Of a stretch of 64,000 bases of DNA, positions 2,993 to 60,290 are shown piece by piece. The notes below the pieces were generated by a model that had not been told where the DNA came from, did not search any database, and saw nothing but the letters and a program-made list of their open reading frames with translations. The position numbers were made by a program, and so were the translations under genes. Within the stretch, counting starts at the first letter, position 1; the number at the start of each line of letters is the position of its first letter. Source of the stretch: a virus; IMG/VR virus record IMGVR_UViG_3300037189_004920, positions 1-64,000 of that record. One strand, written 5' to 3'.

Positions 2993-4564
2993 ATGGCAAA
3001 AAGTTTAGACGGCGTATTAATTAAAAAAGCTCACGTTCGACAAAAGTGGACCGAAGCTGAAATAGAACAAATGCTCAAATGTTCAGATCCTGTCACGGGT
3101 CCGGATTATTTTTTAAGAAACTTTTTCTACATACAGCATCCAACAAAAGGACAAATGTTATTTGAACCTTTTGAGTATCAAATGCGTTTGTTAGACAGCT
3201 ATCATAATTACAGATTTAATGTAAACATGATGCCACGTCAAACAGGTAAAACAACCACTGCGGCTGGTTACTTGCTTTGGTATGCCATGTTTAATCCAGA
3301 CAGTACTATTCTTATTGCGGCACACAAGTACACTGGCGCACAGGAAATTATGCAACGTGTTCGTTATGCTTACGAAATGTGTCCAGATTTTCTACGTGCA
3401 GGTGTTACTAGTTATAATAAGGGCAGTGTTGAATTTGACAACGGATCACGTATAGTAAGTCAAACAACTACAGCTAACACTGGTCGTGGTATGTCTATTA
3501 CACTACTCTACGCTGACGAGTTTGCTTTCGTTCCACCTAACATAGCCAGTGAGTTTTGGACTTCTATATCTCCTACTTTGTCAACTGGTGGTAAAGCTAT
3601 TATTACTAGCACACCAAACAGTGACGAAGATCAGTTTGCACAAATATGGAAAGAAGCAAACAAACGATTTGATGAATATGGTAATGAGCAAGATGTTGGC
3701 ACAAACGGATTCCATCCATTTAAAGCACATTGGAGTGAACATCCTGACAGAGATGAAAAATGGGCCAATGAAGAACGCTCACGCATTGGTGAAGAAAGAT
3801 TCCGTCGTGAACACGAATGTGAATTTATTATCTTTGATGAGACATTGATTAGTGCATTATTCCTTGCAGAAATGGAAGGGGTAGAACCAATCATGCGTGT
3901 AGGTCAGGTGCGCTGGTATAGCAAAATACAAAAGAATAAAAATTATCTAGTCAGTTTAGATCCTAGTTTAGGAACTGGCGGTGACTACAGTGCTGTTGAA
4001 GTATTTGAAATACCTGGAATGAAACAGGTGGCTGAATGGCATCATAATATGACTCCAGTTCAAGCACAGGTTAGAATATTAAAAGAAATTTGCAAATATA
4101 TAACTGAAGAATCAGGTGGCGGGGACAATGCTCCTAAAGTATATTACAGTGTGGAAAATAACACCGTAGGAGAAGCCGCTCTAGTTTCTATTAATGAAAT
4201 TGGAGAGGAAAATATACCAGGATTGTTTATCAGTGAACCCATACGCAAAGGACACGTTCGCAAGTTCCGTAAGGGATTTAACACTACCCATAATAGTAAA
4301 ATTTCTGCTTGCGCCAAGCTAAAACAACTGATTGAAACTAAATCAATTGACATTAAAAGTAAAGCACTTATTAGCCAACTCAAGGCATTTATTGCTTCTG
4401 GAACCAGTTTTGGGGCTAAACAAGGGGAGCATGATGACCTTGTAATGAGTATGTTAGTAGCAGTACGTATGCTAGGAGTACTCAGTGATTGGGATCCACA
4501 AGTATATGATCTTCTAAGAAAGGGCGAAGATGTGGTCATGCCAATGCCCATATTCATGAGCTAA
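2993..4564 (+). CDS. terL: Terminase large subunit (T4 gp17-like)
   Basis: This is the ATP-driven DNA-packaging motor and headful nuclease. The N-terminal ATPase has a Walker A PRQTGKTT at residues 81-88, a Walker B LLYADE at 171-176 and an STPNS coupling motif near 207. The C-terminal RNase H-like nuclease shows SLDPSLGTGGDYS at 321-333, with candidate metal ligand D323, and the downstream acidic motif EHDDLVMSM. At 523 residues it is slightly shorter than T4 gp17 but contains both domains. The ATG at 2993 follows a terminator, and the next gene begins 18 bp downstream with an ATAAATA box between. No small terminase subunit is visible beside it. Confidence 0.97.
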   Translation: MAKSLDGVLIKKAHVRQKWTEAEIEQMLKCSDPVTGPDYFLRNFFYIQHPTKGQMLFEPFEYQMRLLDSYHNYRFNVNMMPRQTGKTTTAAGYLLWYAMFNPDSTILIAAHKYTGAQEIMQRVRYAYEMCPDFLRAGVTSYNKGSVEFDNGSRIVSQTTTANTGRGMSITLLYADEFAFVPPNIASEFWTSISPTLSTGGKAIITSTPNSDEDQFAQIWKEANKRFDEYGNEQDVGTNGFHPFKAHWSEHPDRDEKWANEERSRIGEERFRREHECEFIIFDETLISALFLAEMEGVEPIMRVGQVRWYSKIQKNKNYLVSLDPSLGTGGDYSAVEVFEIPGMKQVAEWHHNMTPVQAQVRILKEICKYITEESGGGDNAPKVYYSVENNTVGEAALVSINEIGEENIPGLFISEPIRKGHVRKFRKGFNTTHNSKISACAKLKQLIETKSIDIKSKALISQLKAFIASGTSFGAKQGEHDDLVMSMLVAVRMLGVLSDWDPQVYDLLRKGEDVVMPMPIFMS

Positions 4565-43666: not shown

Positions 43667-43912
43667 ATGCTATATAAAGAACTTGCTAACAAACATATCA
43701 AACTACCAAGTAAAGGACAAGTGGAAATTGACGCTGGAGATGGCGTTATTCTTGTCCCTTTGAACGACGGTAAAATATTCCTAAATTGGCTCAATGACAA
43801 AGGGCAGATTATAGCTACACATACTTTAAGATTCAGTACTCAAATTGAACGCCGTGTTCGAATTATTAATTCTGAATCTAAAGAAATAACGCTATTGCAA
43901 ATTACTCTATGA
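43667..43912 (+). CDS. Small hypothetical late protein
   Basis: An 81-residue beta-rich protein (LPSKGQVEIDAGDGVILVPL, KIFLNWLNDKGQIIATHTLR). Not recognised. The ATGA overlap couples it to the following oxygenase gene. Confidence 0.66.
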   Translation: MLYKELANKHIKLPSKGQVEIDAGDGVILVPLNDGKIFLNWLNDKGQIIATHTLRFSTQIERRVRIINSESKEITLLQITL

Positions 43913-44424
43913 TAGAGTCTATATATCTAACGCAAGTAAAAGATTTAAATTTACTTGAAGACCTGTGTCAAGAATTACTATCAATACTTGATCAAGACTT
44001 ATCTAGAACTCCTGTTGATCATCCTATTACATTTAACAATAGTGATATTTTTATAATGGATAGTACAATTATAAAAAAGTTTATCAAAGAAGTTGTTGAG
44101 CCTGAATTTGAAAAATATGTAGATGTGCATTACAATAAAAAACTTAGTGAACTTAAACACTATTATAAGTCTTGGGTAGCAATGTATACCAATGGTAGAC
44201 ATCAGCCTATTCATAATCATCCTAGCAGTACCATAAGTTCAGTGATATACCTATTGTCTAATAATGAAGGTGGTGAGATAGAATTTATAGAAGATACCGC
44301 AACATTATTACATGCCCCTGTTACAGGAGACTTTGTAATATTCCCTAGTAGACTTCATCATGAAGTAAAAAAGTACAACGGCAGACTGCGTTTGGCATTG
44401 CCTGTTGATTTATATATTATATGA
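43909..44424 (+). CDS. 2OG-Fe(II) oxygenase-like protein
   Basis: A 171-residue protein. WVAMYTNGRHQPIHNHPSST contains the proximal His motif; ISSVIYLLSNNEGGEIEF, TGDFVIFPSRLHHEVKKY (distal His) and the final RLRLALPVDLYI strand complete the fold of the PF13759-type oxygenase. Substrate unknown. It is coupled upstream and downstream by ATGA overlaps to two other genes. Confidence 0.85.
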   Translation: MIESIYLTQVKDLNLLEDLCQELLSILDQDLSRTPVDHPITFNNSDIFIMDSTIIKKFIKEVVEPEFEKYVDVHYNKKLSELKHYYKSWVAMYTNGRHQPIHNHPSSTISSVIYLLSNNEGGEIEFIEDTATLLHAPVTGDFVIFPSRLHHEVKKYNGRLRLALPVDLYII

Positions 44425-45050
44425 TTAACCTAGAAAACTATTTTGAAAAGGGATTTGATATTACACAGTTAACTCCTGACTTTGTGACCAAGTTGTGGCA
44501 AATAGTTTATACGACAGAATGGATAAACGATGAGTCAGGGTATAAGGCCAAACCAGACTGGTATCAAACTAAAGATATTTCTAATGTTAATAACAGTCGC
44601 ATTTACCAAGGCAAAATAGAACGAGAGTACGGTAAAGAATTATTAAACAACAGTCCAACAGCTATAACAGACATTGCTCAAGATGTCATAAATTCCAATT
44701 TTTTTAGTCCGTTGAGAGTTTTTAAAACCAATACTGAACTAAAATACGTTCATCTTTGGAATGGTGCAGAGGACATATCTTGGCACAGTGATGCAATTGA
44801 TGGTTCAGATATGTTAATACTCGTATATCTAACTGAAGAAATAAAATGGGATAATAACTGGGGTGGCTGTATTGAAATTGCCAAAGATATTAATAATGAA
44901 AAACGTTATCAAACAATGGTACAACCATTAAGTGGTAATATGGTTGTGATAAACAATGCCAATCCACTAGTCAAACATCGAGTTCACGCACTCACTAATC
45001 AAACAGTTAACCGATACACATTCAACATGTGTTTCAATTGGTTAAGTTGA
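44421..45050 (+). CDS. 2OG-Fe(II) oxygenase-like protein
   Basis: A 209-residue protein. HLWNGAEDISWHSDAIDGSD supplies the H-x-D pair, then MLILVYLTEEIKWDNNWGGC, and PLSGNMVVINNANPLVKHRV supplies the distal His. It ends RYTFNMCFNWL. It is similar to the 2OG-Fe(II) family with a WHxD motif and differs clearly from the neighbouring oxygenase, so the pair are not recent duplicates. It overlaps the upstream gene (ATGA). Confidence 0.84.
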   Translation: MINLENYFEKGFDITQLTPDFVTKLWQIVYTTEWINDESGYKAKPDWYQTKDISNVNNSRIYQGKIEREYGKELLNNSPTAITDIAQDVINSNFFSPLRVFKTNTELKYVHLWNGAEDISWHSDAIDGSDMLILVYLTEEIKWDNNWGGCIEIAKDINNEKRYQTMVQPLSGNMVVINNANPLVKHRVHALTNQTVNRYTFNMCFNWLS

Positions 45051-46926: not shown

Positions 46927-47201
46927 TCCCAAGAAAGTTTAACATCAGGAGTGTTGGCTGAAAGCCATTCACCCATATCCCTGCATGTCTTGTGAAACTC
47001 ATCACGTTTAATACTCACAGCGGCAGGATTGGGCCTACCACCATCTCTAGGATCTAATAGCAAGTCCAACTGCTCAGCAGAAATCAACATGGTGTTGTAT
47101 ATTTTCCTACCACTAGATTGAGCAAACTCATCAACACTGTCTAGAGCCTGCTCAATCTGTAGCTTGTGCTGTAAAAACTTAGGGTTTTTACTTAATTTCA
47201 T
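46923..47201 (-). CDS. Hypothetical protein downstream of HNH endonuclease
   Basis: From ATG 47201, 92 residues, helical in the first half (KFLQHKLQIEQALDSVDEFA) with a DPRDGGRPNPAAVSIKRDEF linker. Not recognised. It overlaps the HNH stop in an ATGA, so the two are probably coupled, and its stop overlaps the IF-1 stop. Confidence 0.66.
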   Translation of the reverse strand: MKLSKNPKFLQHKLQIEQALDSVDEFAQSSGRKIYNTMLISAEQLDLLLDPRDGGRPNPAAVSIKRDEFHKTCRDMGEWLSANTPDVKLSWD

Positions 47202-47710
47202 AACAAATATTGTTCCCAACTTGGATGAGCAAGATAGAAAGGCATCTTCTTGCGCTTTTCAACCAGTTCCCAATAGCTTGGTTTATATGGTTGACGCTTA
47301 GGTTTAATGCGTTTATCGTTGCCTTTGTTGGCATTACATTTTGAACAAGCACACGTAGCATTTTCCCACACGCTTTTACCGCCGTGTGATGTTGGCAACA
47401 CATGGTCTAAGGTTGCTGTTTTCTTGTTGACTTGTGCGCCGCAGTACTGGCATTTAAAATCATCGCGGAGAAAAACATTCTGCTTGCTGTAACGAACATA
47501 CGATTTTGCCTTTTGATAATCCCTTAACACCATAACGGCAGGAATCTTGGTTTCCCAAGACGAGCTACGCACCACTCGGTCTTCGTGCCATTCCAAAGGA
47601 ACAGCCTTGTCCAAAACGAGATAAGTGATAGCGTCCTGCCAAGATATAGTACTCAAAGGGAGTACACTAACTGGTTGGCAGTCTGCATTTAGGATTAGAC
47701 ATTCTGACAT
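47198..47710 (-). CDS. HNH endonuclease
   Basis: From ATG 47710, 170 residues. The ββα-metal core is clear: FKCQYCGAQ (C87, C90), LDHVLPTSHGGKSVWENAT (D102, H103) and CSKCNANKGN (C122, C125) with the catalytic His/Asn. The N-terminal 80 residues (LNADCQPVSVLPLSTISWQD, then VPLEWHEDRVVRS) resemble a family of phage HNH proteins found across T4-like aquatic phages. Homing or host-DNA degradation are both possible. A late GTAAATAT box at 47730-47737 precedes it. Confidence 0.9.
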   Translation of the reverse strand: MSECLILNADCQPVSVLPLSTISWQDAITYLVLDKAVPLEWHEDRVVRSSSWETKIPAVMVLRDYQKAKSYVRYSKQNVFLRDDFKCQYCGAQVNKKTATLDHVLPTSHGGKSVWENATCACSKCNANKGNDKRIKPKRQPYKPSYWELVEKRKKMPFYLAHPSWEQYLL

Positions 47711-47729
47711 TAAAACCTCACTTAAAACA

Positions 47730-47737
47730 ATATTTAC
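47730..47737 (-). promoter_or_regulatory. Late-type box GTAAATAT for HNH gene
   Basis: It lies on the minus strand 19 bp before the ATG at 47710. A TATAAT hexamer on the same strand (47744-47749) has only a weak -35 partner. Confidence 0.5.
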
Positions 47738-47804
47738 CTTGAGATTATAGCACGAAACTGCCAAAAGAGCAAGGTACAACATACTTAAACGAATAATTAA
47801 TTTT

Positions 47805-48224
47805 ATGAAAAAACTATTTTGGAAACTACTTGGATTTATAAGTTTGGGCTTGGCCTATATTGGGGTTATTACCCCTGGAATGCCATATTCTATCTTTGTT
47901 GTATTCGCAGCCTATTGTTTTGCCAAAGGTTCACCAAAAATGCATGCCTGGCTGTACAATCACAAGTTGTTTGGGCCGTTCCTAACCAATTGGGGTGAAA
48001 AGCGTGTGTTCCCAACTAAAATGAAATACTTTATGTTGGTCATGATGACCAGTAGTTTGATCATCATGTATTTTACAGGAGTAAAACCAATTGGAATTAT
48101 TAGTACTGCAATTTTTATGGGGCTTGTTGCTATTTGGGCTTGGAGGTTTCCTGGCTCTGTTGCCCATTATGATCAGCGCATCGCTAAAGGCAAAAAAGTA
48201 GGTTGGTTTAATAACAACTTTTGA
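47805..48224 (+). CDS. DUF454 (YbaN-like) membrane protein
   Basis: A 139-residue protein. LGLAYIGVITPGMPYSIFVV, the FAKGSPKMHAWLYNHKLFGP motif, and the later helices YFMLVMMTSSLIIMYF and ISTAIFMGLVAIWAW match the DUF454 family of bacterial inner-membrane proteins, including the LPGLPTTPF-like turn here written TPGMPYSIF. About three transmembrane helices are predicted. The role is unknown; the gene is host-like and unusual in phage. Confidence 0.86.
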   Translation: MKKLFWKLLGFISLGLAYIGVITPGMPYSIFVVFAAYCFAKGSPKMHAWLYNHKLFGPFLTNWGEKRVFPTKMKYFMLVMMTSSLIIMYFTGVKPIGIISTAIFMGLVAIWAWRFPGSVAHYDQRIAKGKKVGWFNNNF

Positions 48225-48225
48225 A

Positions 48226-48233
48226 TATAAATA
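48226..48233 (+). promoter_or_regulatory. Late promoter TATAAATA
   Basis: Perfect octamer, 26 bp before the ATG at 48260. Confidence 0.75.
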
Positions 48234-48259
48234 AATTTATAATTTCAAAGGAGCCACAG

Positions 48260-48643
48260 ATGGCAGATTTATATTCAACATTAGGTACTAACGCTAAGAA
48301 AACATTCGATAGCACACAGTTTGGTACTCGTGATTTAGTATTTTTACAGATTGATGCACAGCAAGATATTGAAACTAACTACACAGCATCAAACAGCGTT
48401 TTTACTGAATTAATCCAATGTCTACAACAAAGAGTTGAGATTTACGGCGTTGGCATTCCAGACGGACAAGAAGTCACTGTTGTAGTCAGCAGACAATCTG
48501 TCCCATTCACTGACAATGAAGAAGCAGATGCAGGCGGTAATGTCAGCGTTTTACAAGACATGATCAATGCAAGTGCTACATTTAGTGGTGTTAATGTGTT
48601 CCACGGTAAGATGAACGGTTGGTCAATCCAAAACGATTGCTAA
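48260..48643 (+). CDS. Conserved hypothetical late protein
   Basis: From ATG 48260 (AAAGGAG 8 bp upstream), 127 residues (MADLYSTLGTNAKKTFDSTQ, VEIYGVGIPDGQEVTVVVSR), predicted mainly alpha/beta, ending in GWSIQNDC. It resembles small proteins of unknown role I recall from aquatic T4-like phages. It stands alone between a late promoter and a terminator, which suggests high expression. Confidence 0.7.
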   Translation: MADLYSTLGTNAKKTFDSTQFGTRDLVFLQIDAQQDIETNYTASNSVFTELIQCLQQRVEIYGVGIPDGQEVTVVVSRQSVPFTDNEEADAGGNVSVLQDMINASATFSGVNVFHGKMNGWSIQNDC

Positions 48644-48658
48644 TCTAATCTAGCAAAC

Positions 48659-48688
48659 AAAGCCCAGATTAAGCCCTGGGCTTTTTTT
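48659..48688 (+). terminator. Rho-independent terminator
   Basis: AAAGCCCAG pairs with CTGGGCTTT around a 7-8-nt loop, then T. It closes the gene at 48260. Confidence 0.88.
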
Positions 48689-48694
48689 ACGGCT

Positions 48695-48702
48695 GTAAAT
48701 AC
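48695..48702 (+). promoter_or_regulatory. Late-type box GTAAATAC
   Basis: Four bp before the ATG at 48707; very short leader. Confidence 0.5.
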
Positions 48703-48706
48703 CTGT

Positions 48707-49366
48707 ATGAAAATTAGACGAAATAGTGAGCGTGGCTATATTCCTCACAGCAGACTAGGCGAAGATAACTTTGAAAGCTATCGTAGTTTTAGTTTTGAAG
48801 GCTACCAAGATCCCAAGTACGATTGCTGGGGTCCTATTAGAACAATTAACGATGATAGAGCACAACCTGGATTTATTACCAGCCATCACGAACATGTGGG
48901 TTTAGATATTCTAAGTTATGTAGTACGAGGTCAGGTGCATCATAAGGATAACTTGGGCAACGAACTTCAAGCACAAGAAGGACAAGTACAATGGATGAGT
49001 TGTGGTACAGGCATTTGGCACACAGAAGGAAACACTAGTGACAAGCCTAACCGTTACTTACAAATATGGATCATGCCCAATAAGATTGCTCCAGTGTGGC
49101 AACCTAAATATGAATTAATAACTCGACCAGCTGGGTTTGCCAAGTTGCCTTTACAGTTACAAAACACAGAGCTAGAAGTGTGGGCTGGCAACTTAGATTG
49201 TTACATGGATATTGTTAACAGTTATCTATTGGTATTAGAAGGAAGCATTCGTGTAGGAGATACTATACTTACAGAAGGAGATAGTATTGATACAGAAGGC
49301 GACTATGTTACTGTGGAGCCAATAGGAACACCACACCTACTACTGTTTGAACTACACTACAATTAA
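48707..49366 (+). CDS. Pirin-family protein (YhaK-like)
   Basis: A 219-residue bicupin-type protein. [20 protein letters not shown] supplies H61 and H63, and [13 protein letters not shown] supplies H105 and E107: the four-ligand metal site of pirin, with the same relative spacing. [20 protein letters not shown] lies between. The C-terminal half has a second beta region. Pirins are metal-binding proteins, some with quercetinase activity. The phage substrate is unknown. The stop overlaps the ALAS stop, TTAA. Confidence 0.88.
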
Positions 49367-50553
49367 AACATTGTTTTAAGAGCTTTAACCAAATCCTCAA
49401 TCATTCCATCATCGTGAAACGGAGTAGGCGCAAAACGTAAACGCTCTGTCCCCACAGCCACAGTAGGATAGTTGATTGGCTGCACATATATGTTGTGCTC
49501 GTTTAGTAATGCATCACTCATGGCTTTACACTTCTTAGCATCTCCCACTAGCACAGGAACAATATGTTCTGTAGCACAACTCATAACTTCAATACCAGCA
49601 ACACCTAAACGATGTTTTAGTTTACGAGCACGTTCTTGATGCTTCTCACGTATCTCATTGTGATCTTTAAGATACTTAACAGCCGCTAGAGCGCCTGCAC
49701 AACTAACTGGGCTCATACTGGTAGTAAAGATAAAGCCAGCTGCCACACTACGAATCGCATCACACACTACGGAGTCGGCAGCAATATAGCCGCCCTGTAC
49801 TCCAAATGCCTTGCCCAGTGTACCATTTATGATATCTATTTCAGATTCTAGTCCAAGCTCTTCAACTTTGCCACCGCCATGTTGTCCATATAAACCAACA
49901 GCGTGAACTTCATCAATATAGGTAATGGCTTTGTATTTTTTAGCAAGGCGGCATATTTCTTTAATGGGACTAACATCGCCATCCATGCTGTAGACACTTT
50001 CAAAAGCAATGCATGGTGTATTTCCTTGTGCAAAACTAATTTTAAGTTTCTGTTCTAAATCTTCTAAGTCGTTGTGTTTGAATACAACTTTCTTGGCTCG
50101 ACTATGACTCATGCCCACAATCATACTGTTGTGGTTATTTTCATCACTGATATATTCTATGTTGGGTATAATTTTAGCAAGAGCAATAAACGTCCATTCA
50201 TTAGCAACATAGGCACTACTGAAAAGCAGTGCTTTGGGTTTCTTATGTAACTGAGCAAGTTCGTATTCAAGGGCCACGTGATAGTGACTGGTCCCGCCAA
50301 TATTGCGGGTGCCGCCTGATCCTGCCCCAGTATGATCTAAGGCGGTGTGCATGGCATCTAGCACAACTTTGTGCTGTCCCATGCCCAAATAATCATTTGA
50401 ACACCAATTAACTATGTTTTTAATGTTGTAAGGCCCGTACCAAATGGCTGTGGGGAATTTGCCCGCCTCACGCACAATGTCATTAAACACGCGGTATTTG
50501 CCCGTTTCTTTTAGGCTTTCTATCAGGTCTTGAAAAGGTTGCTTGTTAATCAT
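49363..50553 (-). CDS. hemA: 5-Aminolevulinate synthase (ALAS, Shemin pathway)
   Basis: It condenses glycine with succinyl-CoA to 5-aminolevulinate, the first precursor of haem and other tetrapyrroles. The 396-residue protein is complete and matches ALAS rather than other alpha-oxoamine synthases throughout: [72 protein letters not shown], and the PLP lysine in [16 protein letters not shown] (K248), with R21 also present. It is leftward, divergent from a tail gene, with a TTAAATAA box at 50560-50567 touching the ATG. No other haem gene is in the window. Confidence 0.97.
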
Positions 50554-50559
50554 ATAGCC

Positions 50560-50567
50560 TTATTTAA
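50560..50567 (-). promoter_or_regulatory. Late-type box TTAAATAA for ALAS
   Basis: It lies 6 bp upstream of the ALAS ATG on the minus strand and 1 bp from CTAAATAT on the other strand. Confidence 0.55.
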
Positions 50568-50568
50568 A

Positions 50569-50576
50569 CTAAATAT
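50569..50576 (+). promoter_or_regulatory. Late-type box CTAAATAT for the rightward tail gene
   Basis: It lies 18 bp before the ATG at 50595, back to back with the ALAS box. Confidence 0.6.
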
Positions 50577-50594
50577 TGATAGAGGGCGACTAAA

Positions 50595-50867
50595 ATGAGC
50601 AGACAACTAATCAATTTGGGCAATGAAAACGCTGGCAATGGCGACCCATTACGCATTGCCTTTGAAAAGGTCAATGACAACTTTACTGAGGTATATGCGT
50701 TGTTAGGAGGCCCAGCAACTGATTTACAAGAACTAGCACAAGATTACGCGGCAGAAATGCTGACTACAGTAACACATAATGGTATCATTACCTCATATAA
50801 TAATTCTACAAATAAATTGACTTTAACAGTAGTGATTGATGGCGGCACTGCTTCAACAGTGTTTTAA
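50595..50867 (+). CDS. Small tail-fibre-associated protein
   Basis: A 90-residue protein starting SRQLINLGNENAGNGDPLRI followed by AFEKVNDNFTEVYALLGG, a module very common at the start of fibre or baseplate-attached proteins in aquatic T4-like phages (QLINxGxxxNDGTGDPLRxAFxKxNxNFxElY). Here it is a stand-alone protein with a short beta-rich end. It is 12 bp before the 1,314-residue fibre gene, so it may serve as adaptor. Confidence 0.8.
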   Translation: MSRQLINLGNENAGNGDPLRIAFEKVNDNFTEVYALLGGPATDLQELAQDYAAEMLTTVTHNGIITSYNNSTNKLTLTVVIDGGTASTVF

Positions 50868-50879
50868 GGATAAAAGAAT

Positions 50880-53800
50880 ATGGCAACGCAGATTAAATTA
50901 AGAAGGGACACGTATCAGAATTGGTTTGATAATAATCCAGTTCTAGGACTAGCTGAACCTGGCTATGATACCACTAACAAAAAACTAAAAATTGGTGATG
51001 GAGTCACTACTTGGCGCCTACTTCCTTATTTTGATGATAAGGAAACGGATCTTAGTGCAGTTGCACAAAATATTGTCCCAAGTGTAGACAGCAACGGTAC
51101 TACAGGGTATACACTAGGAAGTCCAAGTTTTAAATGGAAAGAATTATTTGTATCTAATGGATCAATTTATATTGGTGATGTTAAACTATCTAACGTTGCT
51201 GGTAAACTTGTTGCTACAAAGGTTGTTAATCCTGGAGAAGATGACGAAGCTGAAGATCCTGATGATTCAGATGCAGCTAGCGAAATTGGTAACGGCGGGG
51301 GAATACAATTACCTTCACAAAGTGGACAAGAAGGAAAATTTTTAACAACAGATGGTGATGAATTAAGTTGGGCCACAGTAACTGGCGGCGATGCTGACTT
51401 AGGGTCGTTTACTATCGAAAGTAACATACTAAGTGTAAACTCTGGCACAGATATCTACATCGAAACATACGAAACTGATGGTGACGGTGAAAGCAGATTG
51501 ATATTAAAGCCACAAGAGGATGACGATGGTGACAACCCAACTCGAATAGAAGGTTCATACGGTGTAGGCATTTGGGCCAATACTACCGGCACAGCGAAGA
51601 AATGGTTGTTTGGCTCAGATGGTGATCTAAAACTACCAGCAGGTGGAGACATTGTTGACAGCAGTGGCAACTCAGTATTAGGTGGAGGCGGTGGCGGTGC
51701 TGTTGTAGATCGTGCGGTTAGTTTTCCCAACGGTGAAGCTGGCGACACAGAGGGTACCTTGGCCAACGACAATGGTGTATTGTATTTCTGTACAGCAGAC
51801 TATGTTGATTTCAATCAATATATTGACACACCATTCAGCCTAGAAACCAACCAAGATTTTCTAGTTGGGCAAACAGGCAACTTACTAAATGTAGCAACTA
51901 TATCGCGAGAATCTAACGCTTTTGTTTTATTCATACTAGAGAACGGTGGTACTACTGCCAGCGACTGGTCTATCACAATGACTGACGGCGACTTTGGCGG
52001 AGCACAGACCTGTACTGCTGTAGGATTTAATGTCGATGACGATATTAACTTTTTATGGACACACCGCAATGACGATCCAAACAGTATCCCAGAAGGTTCT
52101 ACGTTTACTGTAACATATACAGGCACATTAAATCGCCCAGCAATTTGGGAAAGAATTAGTGGCGGTGGCAATCTTATTGAATACTATGACGAAGTATTAG
52201 ATTATACCAGTTCAGTTGAACTGACAGGAGATTTTAGAGTAGATGTAGATGATGCTCATTTAGAAGTAGACGGAGACGGATATTGGTCGTTGGGTAGTAA
52301 TAACTACGACACTAAAATATTCTCAACGAGCCGCACAGGGCCTGATCCAGTGGATATCACCATCCGAGCCAACGACAATGATTGGGTTTTTAAAAGTGAT
52401 GGTGGCTTGGCATTCCCAGATGGCACACTACAGACCACAGCCTATACTGGACAGTCGGGCGGCGTTACTAGCAGACGATTTGTTGCTGTAAGTAGAGATG
52501 GTAAAGTCTACGGTTCCACAGACGGTGAGAACTGGACATCATATGTCAGCCCAATAACTAACATTAGTGAGGTTGCTGTTGGCCCTAATCGAATTGTTTA
52601 TGTTGCGGCCAATAGCAATGACCTTGAAAGCCGATCACTATGGTATGCTACCGCTTATAACTCTACTCCTACAGAAGTGGCACCTCCTGAAAATGTACTA
52701 GAATATTACGAGAGAGTATACTATTTCAGCAGTATCGAAAAATATGTAGCAGTGGGATATGTTGCCGAAGGCAATGACTTTCCAATATTACTACACAGCA
52801 GTGATGGTATTACTTGGACTCGTTCATATGTCTCTGAGGAATTGATAACAGAACTTGGCGTTAGCGGCAGTGTGAGGTTCGAAGATATCGCAGAAAATGA
52901 TCTAGGATTTTTCGTTGTTTCAGATGATAGTGACCTAGGTGGATTCTTCCTTGAAAACATCACAGATCCGTTAGACAGCACAACCCATGTTGATCAGACA
53001 ACCGATTTTGATCACGTAGTTTGGGTAGAAACTGCCAACAGCAATCTCGGAGGCTGGCACGCTTTTGAAAGTGCTGAAGAATGGTATCACAATCCAAATC
53101 CTGATCCTCGTCAGGGAACATTTGCGAATTTTGCTCTTGAAGATGACATAGATGATATCACTGAGTCACAATTAGGTGTCAGCGTGGACATTAGAGAAAC
53201 GGCAGTGGGTGTACACAACGGTGTAACAACTCTTGTATTGTCCACACAAAGAGGACACATCCTGTACTGGCCGGTATCAAATGCCTTGCCAACTGTGGTA
53301 ATTCCCGAACCCTACACATCTAGTATTAGTGACATTATTCGCGGAACAATTACAGAGATCGAATGGACTGGTGACTATGAGCCAGAAGAGAGCGGTGAAA
53401 AGATTGTTATCACAGGAGTGACCACTCAACAAGGCGAGCCAGGGACTACTAACCAAAGTTATAATGGTATCAAGTATATTAAGAATAACGGTGGCATTTA
53501 TGAACTCTATACAGACCAAGCATTAACTACGCCGTGGAACACTACCACATATTGGCCAGTTAATACCAATACTGGTACACTGACTTGGAGTCACGGTGCG
53601 GACATTGATGCCCTACACTATGACGATGGTGTGTTCTATATTGGCAACGATAATCACCAACTGTTTAGATCAACTACTGGTGGAGCAACTTGGACTCAAC
53701 TTGGTACAGATGAAGGTACGGCAGATTTTGAATATATTTCTTCCTATGGTACAGTAGTTGCTGACACTACCACAGTGGTCAGTCAGGACACAGCACCCAC

Positions 53801-54824
53801 AGCGGACAATGGCTCACTATGGTTTAACACAGCAGAAGGAAGACTCTACATCAAGTACAGCGATGCTTGGATTGATGCGGCTCCTCTAGTTCAACCGCCA
53901 CCAGACACTGACATTGATGTTAACTCAATTACATTTGCAGATGCTTCAGTATTAACTTCTGTGGCGGACCTAACTCCCAACAAGTTGGTTAACGGTGATA
54001 ATGAACTAGTGCTTGCCACAGATGGTACACTGACATTCCCTGGTGGCAATATCAGCGTAGGTAGCATTCAAGGACAAGAAGTCATTATAGGAAGTACTAA
54101 CGCTACTATAAATGTAATAGCACAGGGCGCAACTGGCGTGGCCAGTCTCGGATGGGCTGAAGACGGAATTGATAGTGTTATTGTTGGATCAAACGTTGCG
54201 GCTGTAACCGTTAACAGTCCAGGCAACAGTTCCCCAGGCACAGTTGAGATAACGACAGGTAATAGTGGTATTGGCACAAACATCTGGGAGTTTAGACCAG
54301 ATGGTACTACAAAGTTTCCTAACGGTGTTATCAGACCACCGTTAGGTGATAATACTACCACAATAGAGTCCGAAAACGGCCTAACTAGTCTTGAAGTTGC
54401 TAATGGTTCAGTTGTTATAACCGCACAAACTTCTACAGAAAATACCTGGACATTTGGCACCAATGGTAGTTTAACTTTCCCAGATAACACAGTACAGACT
54501 ACTGCTTATACTGGGTCAAATGTACAGGGTGAATACATATACGCATTTAACGGTACAAACACAGAATTAACTATTACTAACGTTAACTTCAACTTGTTAT
54601 TTTGTACAGTAGCAAACGCATACGCAGGATCAGCAACGCACACCGTAAACTTGCCTGCGGGAACTCCTGGACAACGATTAGTAGTTATAAACTCAACTAC
54701 ACTTTGTACTCTAGTAGTCTCAGGTGCTGGTGAGGGCGATTCCTCTGTCACTGTTAACAGCGGCCCAGCAGAATACATCTACACTACTAATGAGGGTTGG
54801 TTTGCGATGTACGGCACAGTATAA
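50880..54824 (+). CDS. Giant tail-fibre-type protein
   Basis: A 1,314-residue protein. The N-terminus TQIKLRRDTYQNWFDNNPVL then GLAEPGYDTTNKKLKIGDGV is the fibre-attachment module shared with 55058-59245. The protein is Thr/Asp/Gly-rich with repeated FPDGTLQTTAYTG and FPDNTVQTTAYTG units, and glycine-rich stretches. A central section (about 540-1000) has a beta-propeller-like texture with SRDGKVYGSTDGENWTSY and SSDGITWTRSYVS units. The C-terminus (about 1230-1314) is a separate compact beta domain, probably the tip. Confidence 0.86.
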   Translation: MATQIKLRRDTYQNWFDNNPVLGLAEPGYDTTNKKLKIGDGVTTWRLLPYFDDKETDLSAVAQNIVPSVDSNGTTGYTLGSPSFKWKELFVSNGSIYIGDVKLSNVAGKLVATKVVNPGEDDEAEDPDDSDAASEIGNGGGIQLPSQSGQEGKFLTTDGDELSWATVTGGDADLGSFTIESNILSVNSGTDIYIETYETDGDGESRLILKPQEDDDGDNPTRIEGSYGVGIWANTTGTAKKWLFGSDGDLKLPAGGDIVDSSGNSVLGGGGGGAVVDRAVSFPNGEAGDTEGTLANDNGVLYFCTADYVDFNQYIDTPFSLETNQDFLVGQTGNLLNVATISRESNAFVLFILENGGTTASDWSITMTDGDFGGAQTCTAVGFNVDDDINFLWTHRNDDPNSIPEGSTFTVTYTGTLNRPAIWERISGGGNLIEYYDEVLDYTSSVELTGDFRVDVDDAHLEVDGDGYWSLGSNNYDTKIFSTSRTGPDPVDITIRANDNDWVFKSDGGLAFPDGTLQTTAYTGQSGGVTSRRFVAVSRDGKVYGSTDGENWTSYVSPITNISEVAVGPNRIVYVAANSNDLESRSLWYATAYNSTPTEVAPPENVLEYYERVYYFSSIEKYVAVGYVAEGNDFPILLHSSDGITWTRSYVSEELITELGVSGSVRFEDIAENDLGFFVVSDDSDLGGFFLENITDPLDSTTHVDQTTDFDHVVWVETANSNLGGWHAFESAEEWYHNPNPDPRQGTFANFALEDDIDDITESQLGVSVDIRETAVGVHNGVTTLVLSTQRGHILYWPVSNALPTVVIPEPYTSSISDIIRGTITEIEWTGDYEPEESGEKIVITGVTTQQGEPGTTNQSYNGIKYIKNNGGIYELYTDQALTTPWNTTTYWPVNTNTGTLTWSHGADIDALHYDDGVFYIGNDNHQLFRSTTGGATWTQLGTDEGTADFEYISSYGTVVADTTTVVSQDTAPTADNGSLWFNTAEGRLYIKYSDAWIDAAPLVQPPPDTDIDVNSITFADASVLTSVADLTPNKLVNGDNELVLATDGTLTFPGGNISVGSIQGQEVIIGSTNATINVIAQGATGVASLGWAEDGIDSVIVGSNVAAVTVNSPGNSSPGTVEITTGNSGIGTNIWEFRPDGTTKFPNGVIRPPLGDNTTTIESENGLTSLEVANGSVVITAQTSTENTWTFGTNGSLTFPDNTVQTTAYTGSNVQGEYIYAFNGTNTELTITNVNFNLLFCTVANAYAGSATHTVNLPAGTPGQRLVVINSTTLCTLVVSGAGEGDSSVTVNSGPAEYIYTTNEGWFAMYGTV

Positions 54825-54852: not shown

Positions 54853-55056
54853 ATGGCAATAACATTTCCAACATCGCCCACAATAGGGCAAGAATACGTA
54901 GCAGATAACTCTGCCACTTATCAATGGACGGGCAGTCAGTGGAGCACACAAGTTCCTTGGCTAGCAGGTAGAGCACAATATGTAGCAGGCGGCGGGGTTG
55001 CCGACCAGACTTACAACGAAGATTTAGATAACACCCTTGGTGGAGGCGGAGCATAA
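54853..55056 (+). CDS. Small fibre-associated protein
   Basis: A 67-residue protein: MAITFPTSPTIGQEYVADNS, YQWTGSQWSTQ, ending in LGGGGA. The FPxSPxxGQxYxxxxxxYxWxGxxW pattern is the short fibre-base module that often begins larger tail proteins. It ends 1 bp before the next fibre gene and is probably an adaptor. Confidence 0.76.
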   Translation: MAITFPTSPTIGQEYVADNSATYQWTGSQWSTQVPWLAGRAQYVAGGGVADQTYNEDLDNTLGGGGA

Positions 55057-55057
55057 A

Positions 55058-58000
55058 ATGACAACAAGAATTAAATTACGTAGAGATACGGCGGCAAACT
55101 GGACAACAGCAAATCCAATCCTGGCTGCTGGTGAACCTGGTTTAGAATCAGACACTGGCAAGATCAAGTATGGTGACGGTGAAACTGCTTGGACCAGTTT
55201 AGACTATAACGGTGGCGGCGGAGACTCATTATCTGATGACGGCTCAGTTGTGGTCACAGCAGGTTCAACAGAGCACTGGATTGCCACACAGCGTAGAGAT
55301 AATCAAAACGTTTACCCTAAAGCCCTGCGTTATGACAGTCTAGGTAATTTGTATTCGTTGACTGACTCATATGACGGTCAAGATAATATTACTATTCTTA
55401 CCAAATATACAGCCGCTGGTGCCATAGCATGGCAAAAATCATTCACTGGCTTTGATCCACATTCTTTGGCTATAGACAGCAGTGACCGTGCTTATATCAC
55501 TTACACCGATGGTGGTGACATGTCGCCTCCCTATATTGGAGTATACAAGTTTGAAACCACAGGCGGCGTACTGTGGCAGAAAGAATATGACATGTCCGTA
55601 ACGGCGTCATGGGACGCCTTCATCGAAGAAAAGAGTGCTACCACATTGGCATTGGTATGTAGCGCCAGCGATGAAGCCCCAGGTCCAAACATGATCATAG
55701 CAATGGAAATCAGTGCTTCAACTGGAGCAGTTGAGATTAAACGACGAATCGCATTTGACGCTTTAGATGCAACAGTTTTTGTTACAGGTCTTGATGTTGA
55801 CCCTGATGAAAATGTGTTTATCACAGGCTCACACTATAATAGTGCTGACAGTGTTACCAACATGTTTGTTGAAAAACTAGATCAGAATTTAGGTCGTGTA
55901 TGGTCCAAGACTATTGATGTTGGTGCTACATTCAGTCAGACTGGTGGTGACTGTGCTAGTGACGCACTGGGCAATATCTATGCTGTGGGAGCATATATAG
56001 TTCGAACAATAAACAGCGGTAATGGTACTGGTGACACTGACGAACAATCTGCTGGTATTCTAGTCAAACTAAACTCTAGTGGTGTACTACAATGGACACG
56101 CAGACTTGGGCCAGGACCTTGTGGTAGTTTTATCGCAGGCCTAACAGCCACAGCCACAGGCGATGTTTATCTATCAGCGGCCACTTTTGCTATCAGCACT
56201 GACAGTCAGACAGTTGAAAACGGTCAAAGTGCTCAAGAAGACCTTGGCGATAACAAAATGATTGTAGTTCGTTACACTACCACAGGTGATGTTGTTTGGC
56301 AACGCTATGTTGATGTAGCACATTTAGAAGAAATACCAAACAATCTAGCGGATGGCGACAGTCGCGGACAGGCCATAGCAGTATTTGAGGACAAGTTTGC
56401 TGTAGACGGATACGGCAATACTTGGAATACCACACCTTATGACGAAGGTTACTCACATGACAATGAATATGATTACTTTGTGGTACAGTTGCCCACAGCA
56501 GGCACAGACTTGACCATTGGTGATCTACACTTTACAGAAAGCCGTGTTCCAGGTCGTTTCATTACACCTGAAACTGTTAGCACTCCGTTGGTTAACATTG
56601 CCTATCCTGAAACAATTTCAGCAGAAACCGTTACAATAAACGCAGACGCAGTTGCTCGTGTTGCTAATGATATCGTTAACAGCGACACTTATGATTATAC
56701 ATTTGGTGCTGATGGTACACTGACTATTCCCAACGATGGCGATATTCGACTAACACAAAGTCAAGTAGGCTACATGATGTCCATAGGCAGTACTAATAAT
56801 CTCGATCCAAGTGTTTATTATGCTACGCTAACAGTAGACGCAGATGGTTACACGTATGTAGGCGGAGAAGAAGGTAATGGCAGTAACGCAAGTATAACCA
56901 AGATTAGCCCAACAGGTGAAAGATTGTGGGGTGTGAATATTATTGAAGACAGCGAAGGATGGGAGAACAGAGTTAACGGACTTGTGGTAAATCCTGAAAA
57001 TAACTCAGTGACCGCAATTCTTAGAATTTACACGGGCGACGATTGGTACGGTGCTGTAGTTACTCTAGATAAAGACACTGGTCGTATTTTAGATAACACA
57101 GAATACAAAGACTTGGGCAGTAACATTTACCTAAATGGTATTACTCTTGACAGCAACAACGACCCAATCATAGTGGGTGAAAAGAGTGGTGAGTTCGTTG
57201 CTCCAATCGTTGTTACACCAGAAACTGGCAGCGGCACTGGTGTCATTAAAATCTTAAGAAGTGCTATTCCAAACACTGACGCTGAGAGTTGGGATATTGG
57301 CGGTACTGGCATTACTGGATATGAAGCCATTCTTTATGTAGAACGCTACACAGGATTAACTGGCACAGTGCGTCAAGGCTCAGGTGCTACATTTGACATT
57401 ATCGACAACGGTAATGGCAGTTATAGTGCCGCGGTTGTTAATGGCGGTACAAATTATCTAGCAGGACACAAGATCAAGATTCTAGGTACTAGCCTAGGTG
57501 GTGCTACACCTGCCAACGATATCACTATCACAGTACAAACTGTAAATGAAAACGGTGTTATTCAAGGAGGTGGTGTAGGCAATACAGGAACGGCCGCTGG
57601 CACTGAAACTGCTACCTACACAGCATTATCGGGTGCTAACTTTGAAACAGGTTCTGGATTTGAATTTACACTACGAGGTTCAAGATACAGCAATAATTAT
57701 AATGATTACAATGGTCTTAACGTTGATAATCCTGGCACAAACTATGTAGAAAATGACCGTATTGTTATTCCAGGCACAAGTCTAGGCGGCACTAGCCCTA
57801 CTAACGACTTAACAATAACAGTTGGAGTTAATGCTGGAGGAGTTAACACATGGTACAATCTAGCAGGTACAAGCCAATCAACTACTTGGAAACTAGAAAC
57901 AACCACACAGGTTGATTTTGCTGGTACAGGCTCTTGGTCTATTCAATATCCATTAAGTCAAGAAAGTCTGTTGATCACTAGTGGTTGGTCACGCACATTT

Positions 58001-59245
58001 GGCACTGATGCCAATAAGACAGATTATATAACGGCTGTGGCTAGGGACTCTGGCAACAACATTATTGCCGTTGGTCGTGGTAATGGTGAAACCAGTACCG
58101 GCAATGATGATGACCTTGCCATTGTCTACAAGTTTAGCAGTACTGGCACACTACTATGGACCCGTAAACTAAACGACGAAAGTGACGATTGCGAGGCTCA
58201 TAGTGTAACAACCATTGGCACAGACATCTATGTTACACACGAAAACGACAGTGGCGAAACAATAATCAGCAAACTAGACGCTAGTGGCACAGTCAAGTGG
58301 CAACGCATTACTGAAAGCGGCAACGATCACCGTTCATCAATTGCTGCCACAGCAGATGGCAACTTGTTGGTAGTGGTAGAAGACGATAACAATGATATCG
58401 ATAATGATGCTGTCAAAGTGTTCTTGTTGTCATCCGCAGGTGAAGTCATCTACAAGCGTTGGTTAATGGCTAGTACTGACAGTACTACACGTCTTGATGA
58501 ACGTCGATGCCTAGCAGTAGTTGGGGACAGTTTTTACGTTAGTTGTAGTTACAACACCAATAATAATCAATCACAATTTGTGGCTCGACTACCTGTAGAT
58601 GGTTCAGGCACAGGTGAGTACGGTTCATTCCGTTATGTGGATGTTCATGCTGAAGCAGGTCTGGGCTTTGGCAACAATAACGCACAGGATAATACTAACT
58701 ACATTGTTTCTGAACTTGATTTAGACGGTGTGGACAACTATGCTGGTCCATTGGCTGCGGGTGAAGAAGTTTATATCAAGAGTACTGACACTTATACAAC
58801 TGGTACAGGTGATTACCGTGTAGAAAGTTACTTCCCAAGCATAGTTGTTGAAACTGTGCGTGATACAGATGGCGGCAGTATCATATTCCCAGATGGTACT
58901 AAGCAAACTACTAGTGCTACAGAATGGCCACAAACTCGTTTCTTTGGACAAAAGTACACAGTGGGTATGAAGGATCGTGGAGGCCATATTTTGTGCTATG
59001 ACTCTACTGATTCAATATTATTGCCTTATAACTCTCGTGTTGAACTGCCAATAGGCACAGTGGTACGTGTGGTTAACACAACAAGTAGTAGTATTGCGAT
59101 CAACGTTGAAGGTGGCGGAACTAGTATGATTGTGGCAGGCCAAGGTTATTATAGTACCGGATATGTACTCCCATACGGTCTAGCCACACTATTAAAAGTT
59201 GCTCGTGACGAATGGCATATATCTGGTAACGTGGATGTAAACTAA
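55058..59245 (+). CDS. Giant tail-fibre-type protein with propeller-like repeats
   Basis: From ATG 55058, 1,395 residues. It starts TTRIKLRRDTAANWTTANPI followed by LAAGEPGLESDTGKIKYGDG, the attachment module. Repeats of the type DSLGNLYSLTDS, DALGNIYAVGAYI and YTAAGAIAWQKSF recur through residues about 60-500 and 880-1150, as in beta-propeller (SBBP-like) repeat proteins. Two similar FETGSGFEFTLRG and GTSLGG units near 760-860 suggest another internal repeat. The C-terminus has FPDGTKQTTSATEW, then a compact ending RDEWHISGNVDVN. The following oxygenase begins 2 bp later. Confidence 0.86.
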   Translation: MTTRIKLRRDTAANWTTANPILAAGEPGLESDTGKIKYGDGETAWTSLDYNGGGGDSLSDDGSVVVTAGSTEHWIATQRRDNQNVYPKALRYDSLGNLYSLTDSYDGQDNITILTKYTAAGAIAWQKSFTGFDPHSLAIDSSDRAYITYTDGGDMSPPYIGVYKFETTGGVLWQKEYDMSVTASWDAFIEEKSATTLALVCSASDEAPGPNMIIAMEISASTGAVEIKRRIAFDALDATVFVTGLDVDPDENVFITGSHYNSADSVTNMFVEKLDQNLGRVWSKTIDVGATFSQTGGDCASDALGNIYAVGAYIVRTINSGNGTGDTDEQSAGILVKLNSSGVLQWTRRLGPGPCGSFIAGLTATATGDVYLSAATFAISTDSQTVENGQSAQEDLGDNKMIVVRYTTTGDVVWQRYVDVAHLEEIPNNLADGDSRGQAIAVFEDKFAVDGYGNTWNTTPYDEGYSHDNEYDYFVVQLPTAGTDLTIGDLHFTESRVPGRFITPETVSTPLVNIAYPETISAETVTINADAVARVANDIVNSDTYDYTFGADGTLTIPNDGDIRLTQSQVGYMMSIGSTNNLDPSVYYATLTVDADGYTYVGGEEGNGSNASITKISPTGERLWGVNIIEDSEGWENRVNGLVVNPENNSVTAILRIYTGDDWYGAVVTLDKDTGRILDNTEYKDLGSNIYLNGITLDSNNDPIIVGEKSGEFVAPIVVTPETGSGTGVIKILRSAIPNTDAESWDIGGTGITGYEAILYVERYTGLTGTVRQGSGATFDIIDNGNGSYSAAVVNGGTNYLAGHKIKILGTSLGGATPANDITITVQTVNENGVIQGGGVGNTGTAAGTETATYTALSGANFETGSGFEFTLRGSRYSNNYNDYNGLNVDNPGTNYVENDRIVIPGTSLGGTSPTNDLTITVGVNAGGVNTWYNLAGTSQSTTWKLETTTQVDFAGTGSWSIQYPLSQESLLITSGWSRTFGTDANKTDYITAVARDSGNNIIAVGRGNGETSTGNDDDLAIVYKFSSTGTLLWTRKLNDESDDCEAHSVTTIGTDIYVTHENDSGETIISKLDASGTVKWQRITESGNDHRSSIAATADGNLLVVVEDDNNDIDNDAVKVFLLSSAGEVIYKRWLMASTDSTTRLDERRCLAVVGDSFYVSCSYNTNNNQSQFVARLPVDGSGTGEYGSFRYVDVHAEAGLGFGNNNAQDNTNYIVSELDLDGVDNYAGPLAAGEEVYIKSTDTYTTGTGDYRVESYFPSIVVETVRDTDGGSIIFPDGTKQTTSATEWPQTRFFGQKYTVGMKDRGGHILCYDSTDSILLPYNSRVELPIGTVVRVVNTTSSSIAINVEGGGTSMIVAGQGYYSTGYVLPYGLATLLKVARDEWHISGNVDVN

Positions 59246-59247
59246 CT

Positions 59248-59703
59248 GTGATAGCAACGCATACTAATCCCGTTAGGTGCGTTCAATTAGCAGTACCCGA
59301 AGGTCTTGCGGCACGTATTCAACAACAGCGTGAATTGACGCCGCGAGATCGTGATGGCAGAGGCTGGCAAAGTTATCCAACTACTGACCAGCCTTTTGTT
59401 TGGTTTGACTCAGTATATCAAGCAGTGGAGGCTGAACACGGTGCCATAGACACTTGGTGGTTTAATGTAAACACACTGGGCGAATACACCAACTGGCACG
59501 CTCACCATCGCTGGGCCAAGGTAGCAGTATTGTATGTTACTGTGCCTGGCGGTGATATAGAGTTTAGGCAGGGCGGAGCATATTGGCGTGAAACTCCTCA
59601 AGCAGGGGACTTATTTGTTTTCTCTGGAGAGTTAGATCATAGAGTCTTGCCCAACCCTAGCGAACAAGTTAGGATCAGCGTAGCATTTAACTTTAAGAAT
59701 TAG
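59248..59703 (+). CDS. 2OG-Fe(II) oxygenase-like protein beside the fibre gene
   Basis: A 151-residue protein with a GTG start. WWFNVNTLGEYTNWHAHHRW gives the proximal His motif; KVAVLYVTVPGGDIEFRQGG, TPQAGDLFVFSGELDHRVLP (distal His) and NPSEQVRISVAFNF (2OG-binding Arg) follow. This is the same fold pattern as the oxygenases near 38 and 44 kb, in a shorter form. It follows the fibre stop by 2 bp, so they are co-transcribed. Its stop overlaps the QueC-like stop. Confidence 0.8.
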   Translation: MIATHTNPVRCVQLAVPEGLAARIQQQRELTPRDRDGRGWQSYPTTDQPFVWFDSVYQAVEAEHGAIDTWWFNVNTLGEYTNWHAHHRWAKVAVLYVTVPGGDIEFRQGGAYWRETPQAGDLFVFSGELDHRVLPNPSEQVRISVAFNFKN

Positions 59704-60290
59704 CGTATTGCCTGTTCACGTAGTTTAACACACGTATCGCACTTCCCACAAGGTGCGATATTTTTTTCACTGTACACCGGACGCCTACAACTCCAAAATA
59801 TATTACGCAATGTATCTGGTAAGCTATCGTAGATTTCACGCTTGGTCATTGTCATTACTGGATAGATTTTACCCACATCAGTAAATGCCGCTAATATTTT
59901 GTCAGCACGTTTACGGCGGTCTTCTAGTGCTAGATTATAATCATTTGCCTGCATGCCTAGAGCAACTTTTACTATATCAGGATTCGCAGAACAAATATAG
60001 CCAGCAAAGAAGTTAAGTGTATCTGAATCAAAAAGAAACTTGTTGCCGTAAGGTTGTGTGCCTATTTCGCTTTCACTATAGTCAAAAGTAAAACCCAATC
60101 GTTTGAGTTCTTTTAGAGCCATGTCAACAGCAATCTTTTCTGCCTGTGCCCTATTCTCCACATTACGATTGTGTATGTGATGTATGTGTAACCGATAGTC
60201 TCGGTATTCAGGATCTGTAAGCAACTTGTACGTCATGCCTAGGCTGTCAAGTCCGCCCGAGTACATGGCTAAGATTGTTTGTTGTTCCAT
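59700..60290 (-). CDS. queC: QueC-like 7-cyano-7-deazaguanine synthase / PP-loop ATPase
   Basis: A 196-residue protein. The PP-loop SGGLDSLGMTYKLL (11-24) and the Cys cluster WSCRRPVYS, then APCGKCDTCVKLR (C167, C180, C183, C186) match QueC, the ATP-dependent enzyme making preQ0. It is shorter than typical QueC (about 220-230), and a domain central to substrate binding may be reduced. In phages QueC can feed queuosine in tRNA or 7-deazaguanine DNA modification, but no other gene of that pathway is in the window. It overlaps the upstream methyltransferase-like gene. Confidence 0.82.
   Translation of the reverse strand: MEQQTILAMYSGGLDSLGMTYKLLTDPEYRDYRLHIHHIHNRNVENRAQAEKIAVDMALKELKRLGFTFDYSESEIGTQPYGNKFLFDSDTLNFFAGYICSANPDIVKVALGMQANDYNLALEDRRKRADKILAAFTDVGKIYPVMTMTKREIYDSLPDTLRNIFWSCRRPVYSEKNIAPCGKCDTCVKLREQAIR

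Follow-up and report, generated by a model that had tools for sequence, protein, structure and literature searches.

The window, by which is meant the whole stretch of DNA analysed here (the first 64,000 bases of a virus record of 64,815 bases), carries a complete gene for 5-aminolevulinate synthase (ALAS). The gene is called valaS in the sense of an ALAS gene embedded among phage genes, which is the setting found both in the window and, for its relatives, in IMG/VR contigs. The features on which the argument depends are as follows.

2993..4564, plus strand: terminase large subunit (PHROG 36964, E 5.6e-125)
47198..47782, minus strand: HNH endonuclease-like gene adjoining DUF454 (PF14279/PF01844), recurrent in the neighbourhood
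47805..48224, plus strand: DUF454 (PF04304, YbaN family) predicted membrane protein, 139 aa, a conserved neighbour of valaS
48221..48643, plus strand: ORF of 140 aa with a TTG start and no known function (from the ORF list)
48707..49366, plus strand: pirin-like bicupin, 219 aa (PF02678, 79.7 bits)
49363..50553, minus strand: valaS, complete, 396 aa (TIGR01821, catalytic positions, structural model)
50561..50566, minus strand: TAAATA box resembling a T4-type late promoter, 7 nt ahead of the valaS start codon and in the same slot in relatives
50570..50575, plus strand: a second TAAATA box, facing the other way, putatively serving the divergent gene at 50595 (read from the sequence)
50595..50867, plus strand: divergent ORF of 90 aa ahead of the fibre-like genes (from the ORF list and relatives' loci)
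50880-54824 and 55037-59245: large fibre-like genes

In addition to the terminase and the fibre-like genes, valaS shares the window with genes for a UvsX-like recombinase, a ssDNA-binding protein, a DNA helicase, a primase and a DnaB-like helicase, and the fragment has one tRNA, tRNA-Met. The closest isolate terminases are divided between Pseudomonas and rhizobial jumbo phages: the window terminase matches those of PA5oct-like Pseudomonas jumbo phages (284-288 kb) at 54.9%, that of Sinorhizobium phage Phosso (469 kb) at 51.1% and that of Agrobacterium phage Atu_ph07 (490 kb) at 54.2% over 81%. Because the terminase is closest to those of jumbo phages, and because valaS-bearing relatives reach 356 kb, the record probably represents part of the genome of a large, myovirus-like phage.

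The pirin-like gene is convergent with valaS, the ends of the two overlapping by 4 bases, and together with the 140-aa ORF it is an extra element of the window, both being absent between DUF454 and valaS in the relatives L002-L004. One close viral relative of the pirin-like gene was found (L150, 91%), beside the same 140-aa ORF in a valaS-free 7-kb locus, and the two are possibly a separate mobile pair; among 50,697 records of isolated phages, a pirin-like gene appears in 10, as distant or bacterial-type matches only. Elsewhere in the window, three 2OG-Fe(II) oxygenase-like genes lie near the fibre-like genes (43909-45050, 59248-59703), followed by a short QueC-like protein with a weak TIGR00364/PF06508 match (59700-60290, minus strand) and a fatty-acid-desaturase-like protein (60754-61458, plus strand). 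In some relatives (L026, L065, L069, L073, L418) valaS is adjoined by sugar-nucleotide genes resembling a heptose pathway (PfkB-type kinase, cytidylyltransferase-like, HAD phosphatase, NAD-dependent epimerase), and in one subgroup (L059-L062, L065, L069-L081) a ClpP-type protease gene lies near it; a 353-kb record of that subgroup, G044, has DUF454 elsewhere in the record. A search for a methane-monooxygenase link (PF04896) gave no match in 26 records, and the control was likewise without a match anywhere.

Identity and phage ancestry of the enzyme

The valaS reading frame runs uninterrupted for 396 codons on the minus strand from an ATG at 50553 to a stop that ends at 49363, while the plus strand across the same interval contains many stops. 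In a profile search the product scores 567.5 bits against TIGR01821, for which the curated equivalog cut-off is 338.55. The closest solved structures are the ALAS of Rhodopseudomonas palustris (7x98, E 1.8e-132) and that of Rhodobacter capsulatus (2bwn, E 6.3e-121), and the predicted structure of the valaS product (mean pLDDT 84.2, with low-confidence loops at 22-44 and 79-87) superimposes on them with Z scores of 45.3 and 45.0, respectively, at an rmsd of 1.7-1.8 A over 339-341 residues and with 51-54% identity. The other alpha-oxoamine synthases have the same common fold, and the model does align with them at Z 36-42, so that it must be asked whether the product could be KBL (glycine C-acetyltransferase), BioF, a serine palmitoyltransferase or an enzyme of the CAI-1 type (CqsA). 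This is very improbable, since TIGR01821 is far over its own cut-off whereas every non-ALAS profile falls under its curated value (BioF 314 against 426, Kbl 312 against 460, SPT 234 against 640, with CAI-1 synthase also under), and since identity is 48-54% to ALAS structures and 22-34% to the structures of the other families.

In R. capsulatus numbering, the positions R21, N54, T83, N85, S137, D138, H142, K156, S189, D214, H217, T245, K248, T365 and R374 are shared by the window and 83/83 relatives, of which 80 are viral (the best 80 of 288) and 3 are loci from metagenome-assembled genomes (MAGs); L001, which is the window itself, and L085 were excluded from this alignment. We take the positions other than K248, for example R21, N54, T83, H142, D214, H217, T245, T365 and R374, to have roles in binding substrate or PLP. 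Lys248 is the PLP-binding lysine of ALAS (PMC11480375). The gene is under strong purifying selection, with dN/dS about 0.05: values of 0.046, 0.057 and 0.055 were obtained against L002, L003 and L022, the pairs with unsaturated dS, synonymous sites being saturated for L008, L031 and L048.

A scan of IMG/VR with valaS gave 288 related stretches, the best 80 of which are 82-97% identical, and a scan with a wider alignment gave at least 562, of which the best 80 are about 66-79% identical to the window. Among the 50,697 records of isolated phages there is no close homologue, the 19 matches being distant or bacterial-type and all below 60% identity (best 35.4%), so a cultured system is not at hand. 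Matches are present in 241/289 alphaproteobacterial genomes, the best about 60% identical to the window gene. In an ALAS tree, 47 phage rows (thinned at 95% identity) fall on one side of a single branch and 52 bacterial rows on the other, which amounts to one change with a support of 100 in a quick tree with SH-aLRT support only and long bacterial branches; rows L095-L099 are excluded from the bacterial counts taken from the ALAS alignment. On this sequence comparison, phage ALAS is one clade separate from bacterial ALAS.

These results bear on the possibility that this DNA belongs to a host, or that valaS was acquired by chance and has no function in the phage, as might be supposed for an ordinary alphaproteobacterial gene on a fragment from uncultured DNA. 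Such an origin is scarcely credible, because the gene has a phage-gene setting in scores of separate viral contigs, belongs to a single phage clade, evolves under purifying selection and has the GC content of the window (0.42 for both). Two of the MAG relatives, L082 (PBPT01000016.1, labelled Neomarinimicrobiota) and L083 (PAND01000020.1, labelled Flavobacteriales), resemble large phages binned with bacteria and are probably phage; the ALAS protein of L083 matches the one encoded by IMG/VR contig L340 at 100% identity, which is the reason for this assignment in its case. The valaS genes of such contigs could be mistaken for bacterial ones.

The interval 49363-50553 is thus best read as an auxiliary metabolic gene of a phage, encoding an active ALAS that depends on PLP, a reading to which we assign a probability of roughly 0.87, and in which the activity is deduced from published evidence on a related phage enzyme (PMC11480375). 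An earlier note made from the sequence had described a phage gene for a full ALAS with the PLP lysine and the substrate residues intact; the profile score, the conserved positions, the terminase, UvsX and other phage genes of the window, the phage clade and the relatives in viral contigs all bear this description out. The note gave no strand for the gene and did not pick out DUF454 as a partner, nor the scarcity of the heme-feedback residues in bacterial ALAS.

A TAAATA box at the start codon

The TAAATA box upstream of valaS is a recurrent feature of the gene. Among 43 upstream regions (the window and those relatives, thinned at 95% identity, for which a start is tabulated and 40 upstream bases are available; L032, whose match does not start at residue 1, was excluded), 36 have TAAATA 5-8 nt ahead of the ATG, compared with 33 of 8600 sites taken at random from these loci (0.4%, with a slot of 4-12 nt), and an SD-like sequence precedes valaS in 3/43. 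The box is not confined to this gene. In the window, TAAATA stands 4-10 nt ahead of 11 ATG-initiated ORFs with a length of 60 aa or more, versus 0-6 for the 14 other arrangements of these letters, and in 14 relatives the corresponding number is 73 versus 4-29, with gaps of 4-8 nt; boxes 4-7 nt before an ATG in the window include those at 4583, 15931, 20115, 20145, 48707 and 60754. A scan of 48000-51500 for sigma-70 promoters returned 8 promoter-like sites, which is the chance level (shuffle mean 9.4).

A T4-type late promoter is taken here as a TATAAATA-like box at the transcription start, used late in infection by gp55/gp33-type factors. In T4, transcription starts about six bases after the late box. 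If the +1 position lies about 6 bases past the box here as well, the valaS mRNA would begin at the ATG or within about 2 nt of it. The TAAATA core upstream of genes is shared with T4-type late promoters, but in the group to which the window belongs the box is often 4-8 nt from the ATG, so that the predicted transcript would be almost without a leader. The T4 late box is given as TATAAATA and that of cyanophage S-PM2 as NATAAATA (PMC2984593), and a passage in another report describes phage transcripts as often leaderless (PMC5312081). The pattern suggests that many late-type messages in this phage group are near-leaderless, and that valaS may be expressed late from such a message. The late, leaderless-looking promoter proposed in the earlier note therefore holds as a sequence pattern (36/43 versus 33/8600).

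Heme, bilins and the heme-feedback site

That Shemin-pathway genes had already been reported from aquatic phages, as the earlier note also states, is confirmed by the literature: Wegner et al. 2024 (PMC11480375) describe valaS, on its own or accompanied by hemO and pcyA/X, from phages of both marine and fresh waters, and demonstrate activity for one of the products, the phage CB_2 enzyme, which complements an ALA-auxotrophic E. coli and produces ALA. Since phage ALAS is already published and active, the core finding belongs to a known kind: the window gene adds another valaS, and the enzyme itself is ordinary. It agrees with the published genes in being an aquatic phage ALAS gene that keeps the PLP lysine and substrate residues and is without the His342/Cys400 heme site of R. 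capsulatus. It differs in its setting, a large-phage fragment in which valaS is accompanied by DUF454 and in which no hemO or bilin reductase is found in 64.8 kb; the words "DUF", "YbaN" and "jumbo" do not occur in the main text of that paper (PMC11480375). Compared with alphaproteobacterial HemA (2bwn/2bwo/2bwp, 7x98), the window enzyme has the same family, fold and catalytic residues, but it is about 60% identical at best and belongs to the separate phage clade.

The phage valaS would supply ALAS and thereby sustain the heme or bilin supply to the benefit of the phage. It is possible to argue that this supply goes to bilins, by way of heme oxygenase and bilin reductase, instead of to heme and respiration. 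Heme oxygenase (PF01126) and bilin reductase (PF05996) occur together in the same 14 of 50 valaS records (the window, 48 of the best 80 of 288 loci picked mainly for length, and L082), and bilin reductase is the direct downstream neighbour of valaS in 16/80 loci of the wider set (the best 80 of 562). Neither family has a match in the 64,815-base fragment, although both may lie elsewhere in the genome, and many valaS records likewise have neither, an observation limited by the fact that fragments cannot show absence. Apart from valaS, the fragment yielded no enzyme of the tetrapyrrole pathway, the family search having covered heme oxygenase and bilin reductase. The commonest neighbour of valaS is moreover DUF454, not a bilin gene, and we consider the bilin route unlikely.

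It has been proposed that loss of His342 and Cys400 may release the phage enzyme from heme feedback (PMC11480375). The window ALAS is indeed without the R. capsulatus-type site, having Lys at 342 and a tail with no Cys. His342 is present in 2/30 of the closest bacterial ALAS, 0/20 of a spread of bacterial ALAS and 0/80 phage sequences (the best 80 of 288), and a tail Cys in 2/30, 1/20 and 1/80, respectively. We accordingly reject the idea that loss of heme feedback is special to phage ALAS: most of the bacterial ALAS sampled lack both residues too, so that their absence says little about phage adaptation, and the bacterial comparison weakens the published argument.

DUF454 as a companion of valaS

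The product of 47805-48224 scores 102 bits against PF04304, for which the gathering cut-off is 35.1, and thus belongs to the DUF454/YbaN family; what sets it apart is its position beside valaS in phages. Its predicted structure is all-helical (mean pLDDT 84.5, pTM 0.58) and has no match in the PDB at E <= 0.001. A histidine of the family, His53, is almost invariant, being present in 55/61 sequences. In the window the gene lies two genes from valaS and on the opposite strand; in L002-L004 and L008-L009, the nearest relatives, nothing separates the two genes, which converge. DUF454 is present in 49/83 loci of the first valaS set (80 viral, the best 80 of 288), and in 18/20 of those loci that have at least 9 kb on each side. 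In the wider set (the best 80 of 562) it is directly downstream of valaS on the same strand in 52/80, with gaps of -44 to +48 bases; it follows after one intervening gene in 8/80 and is directly upstream in 6/80. Thinning this set at 95% identity leaves 38 distinct loci. In 32 of them DUF454 shares the strand of valaS and is no more than two genes away from it, and the next most frequent family reaches 8.

The association extends to whole records. DUF454 occurs in 15/19 valaS-bearing records and in 0/30 related records that lack valaS (21 of 80 terminase relatives of at least 30 kb and 9 ligase relatives), a difference for which the Fisher p value of 2.5e-9 ignores relatedness and fragmentation, adjacent genes co-occurring in fragments in any case. 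In a set of 42 records chosen by length (22 of 55 marine DUF454 loci with no nearby valaS, 11 of the freshwater DUF454 loci and the 9 ligase relatives), 8/10 of the DUF454-bearing records of at least 40 kb carry valaS somewhere, three of these coming from loci with no valaS nearby. Among isolated phages, DUF454 appears in 6 of the 50,697 records, as distant or bacterial-type matches only.

A connection of DUF454 with heme is suggested by bacterial gene order. Within about 1.5 kb of proteobacterial heme oxygenase genes, DUF454 occurs in 12/30 loci, on the same strand in all 12, and in 11/30 it lies directly downstream at a distance of 23-191 bases (L424, L428, L430-L433, L435, L437, L440, L442 and L443, with DUF454 upstream in L425); thinning by HemO identity leaves 7/24 loci at 80% and 4/20 at 60%. 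The reverse search found heme oxygenase beside 0/30 alphaproteobacterial DUF454 loci, with a flawed profile that took some wrong ORFs for heme oxygenase. Passages in three published studies list E. coli ybaN among Fur-regulated genes (PMC10164565), describe DUF454 and haem oxygenase as both co-occurring with T11SS genes (PMC12282271) and describe a rise of DUF454 under iron restriction in Avibacterium (PMC7970244). In the open-licence collection that was searched, nothing names YbaN together with heme oxygenase, no report of DUF454 beside valaS in phages was found and, among papers that name both DUF454 and phage, none is on phage ALAS by title or abstract; the relevant paper on phage ALAS there is PMC11480375.

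A phage tetrapyrrole module that has so far gone unrecognised could be formed by valaS and DUF454, with DUF454/YbaN as a heme-pathway protein (for instance one that handles, senses or moves heme or porphyrin at the inner membrane) which is inherited together with ALAS in phages and, in Proteobacteria, with heme oxygenase, and with valaS made late from a near-leaderless message. The heme-linked role is read from gene order, and for the proposal as a whole we would put the chances at a little under even. The pairing might instead be inherited synteny with no functional link, DUF454 being a general membrane gene of phages, and this too is a serious contender, if also one short of an even chance. 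It would account for the 55/80 marine loci selected by DUF454 that have no valaS within 6 kb, and for the 48/80 freshwater DUF454 loci with none nearby (9/27 among those with at least 5 kb on each side); the DUF454 of valaS-free loci is often next to a spike-like structural gene. It would also agree with the finding that DUF454 is beside none of 33 bacterial loci (L097-L129, of which 31 are ALAS and two, L098 and L099, score under the ALAS cut-off) and none of 8 phage loci with heme oxygenase or bilin reductase. Simple synteny is less easily reconciled with the way in which DUF454 stays in place while the other neighbours of valaS vary, with the co-occurrence of the two genes even when they are not adjacent, and with the same-strand position of DUF454 after bacterial heme oxygenase.

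A functional link between valaS and DUF454 is no more than plausible on these genomic patterns, because DUF454 is often found with no valaS nearby, is neither adjacent to it nor co-directional with it in the window and is beside none of the 31 bacterial ALAS genes examined. According to the proposed module, valaS would normally be accompanied by DUF454 and sometimes also by heme oxygenase and bilin reductase, and in the fragment that contains the window the module would consist of valaS and DUF454 only, inverted with respect to each other. What is new here is the partnership of the two genes as seen in gene order. ALAS emerges as a widespread gene of large aquatic phages instead of an oddity of a few contigs, and the genomic company that it keeps provides a testable clue to DUF454/YbaN, a family with no known function. 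The wider interest of the locus lies in the conserved late-type start of valaS and, above all, in the possible tie of DUF454 to heme metabolism.
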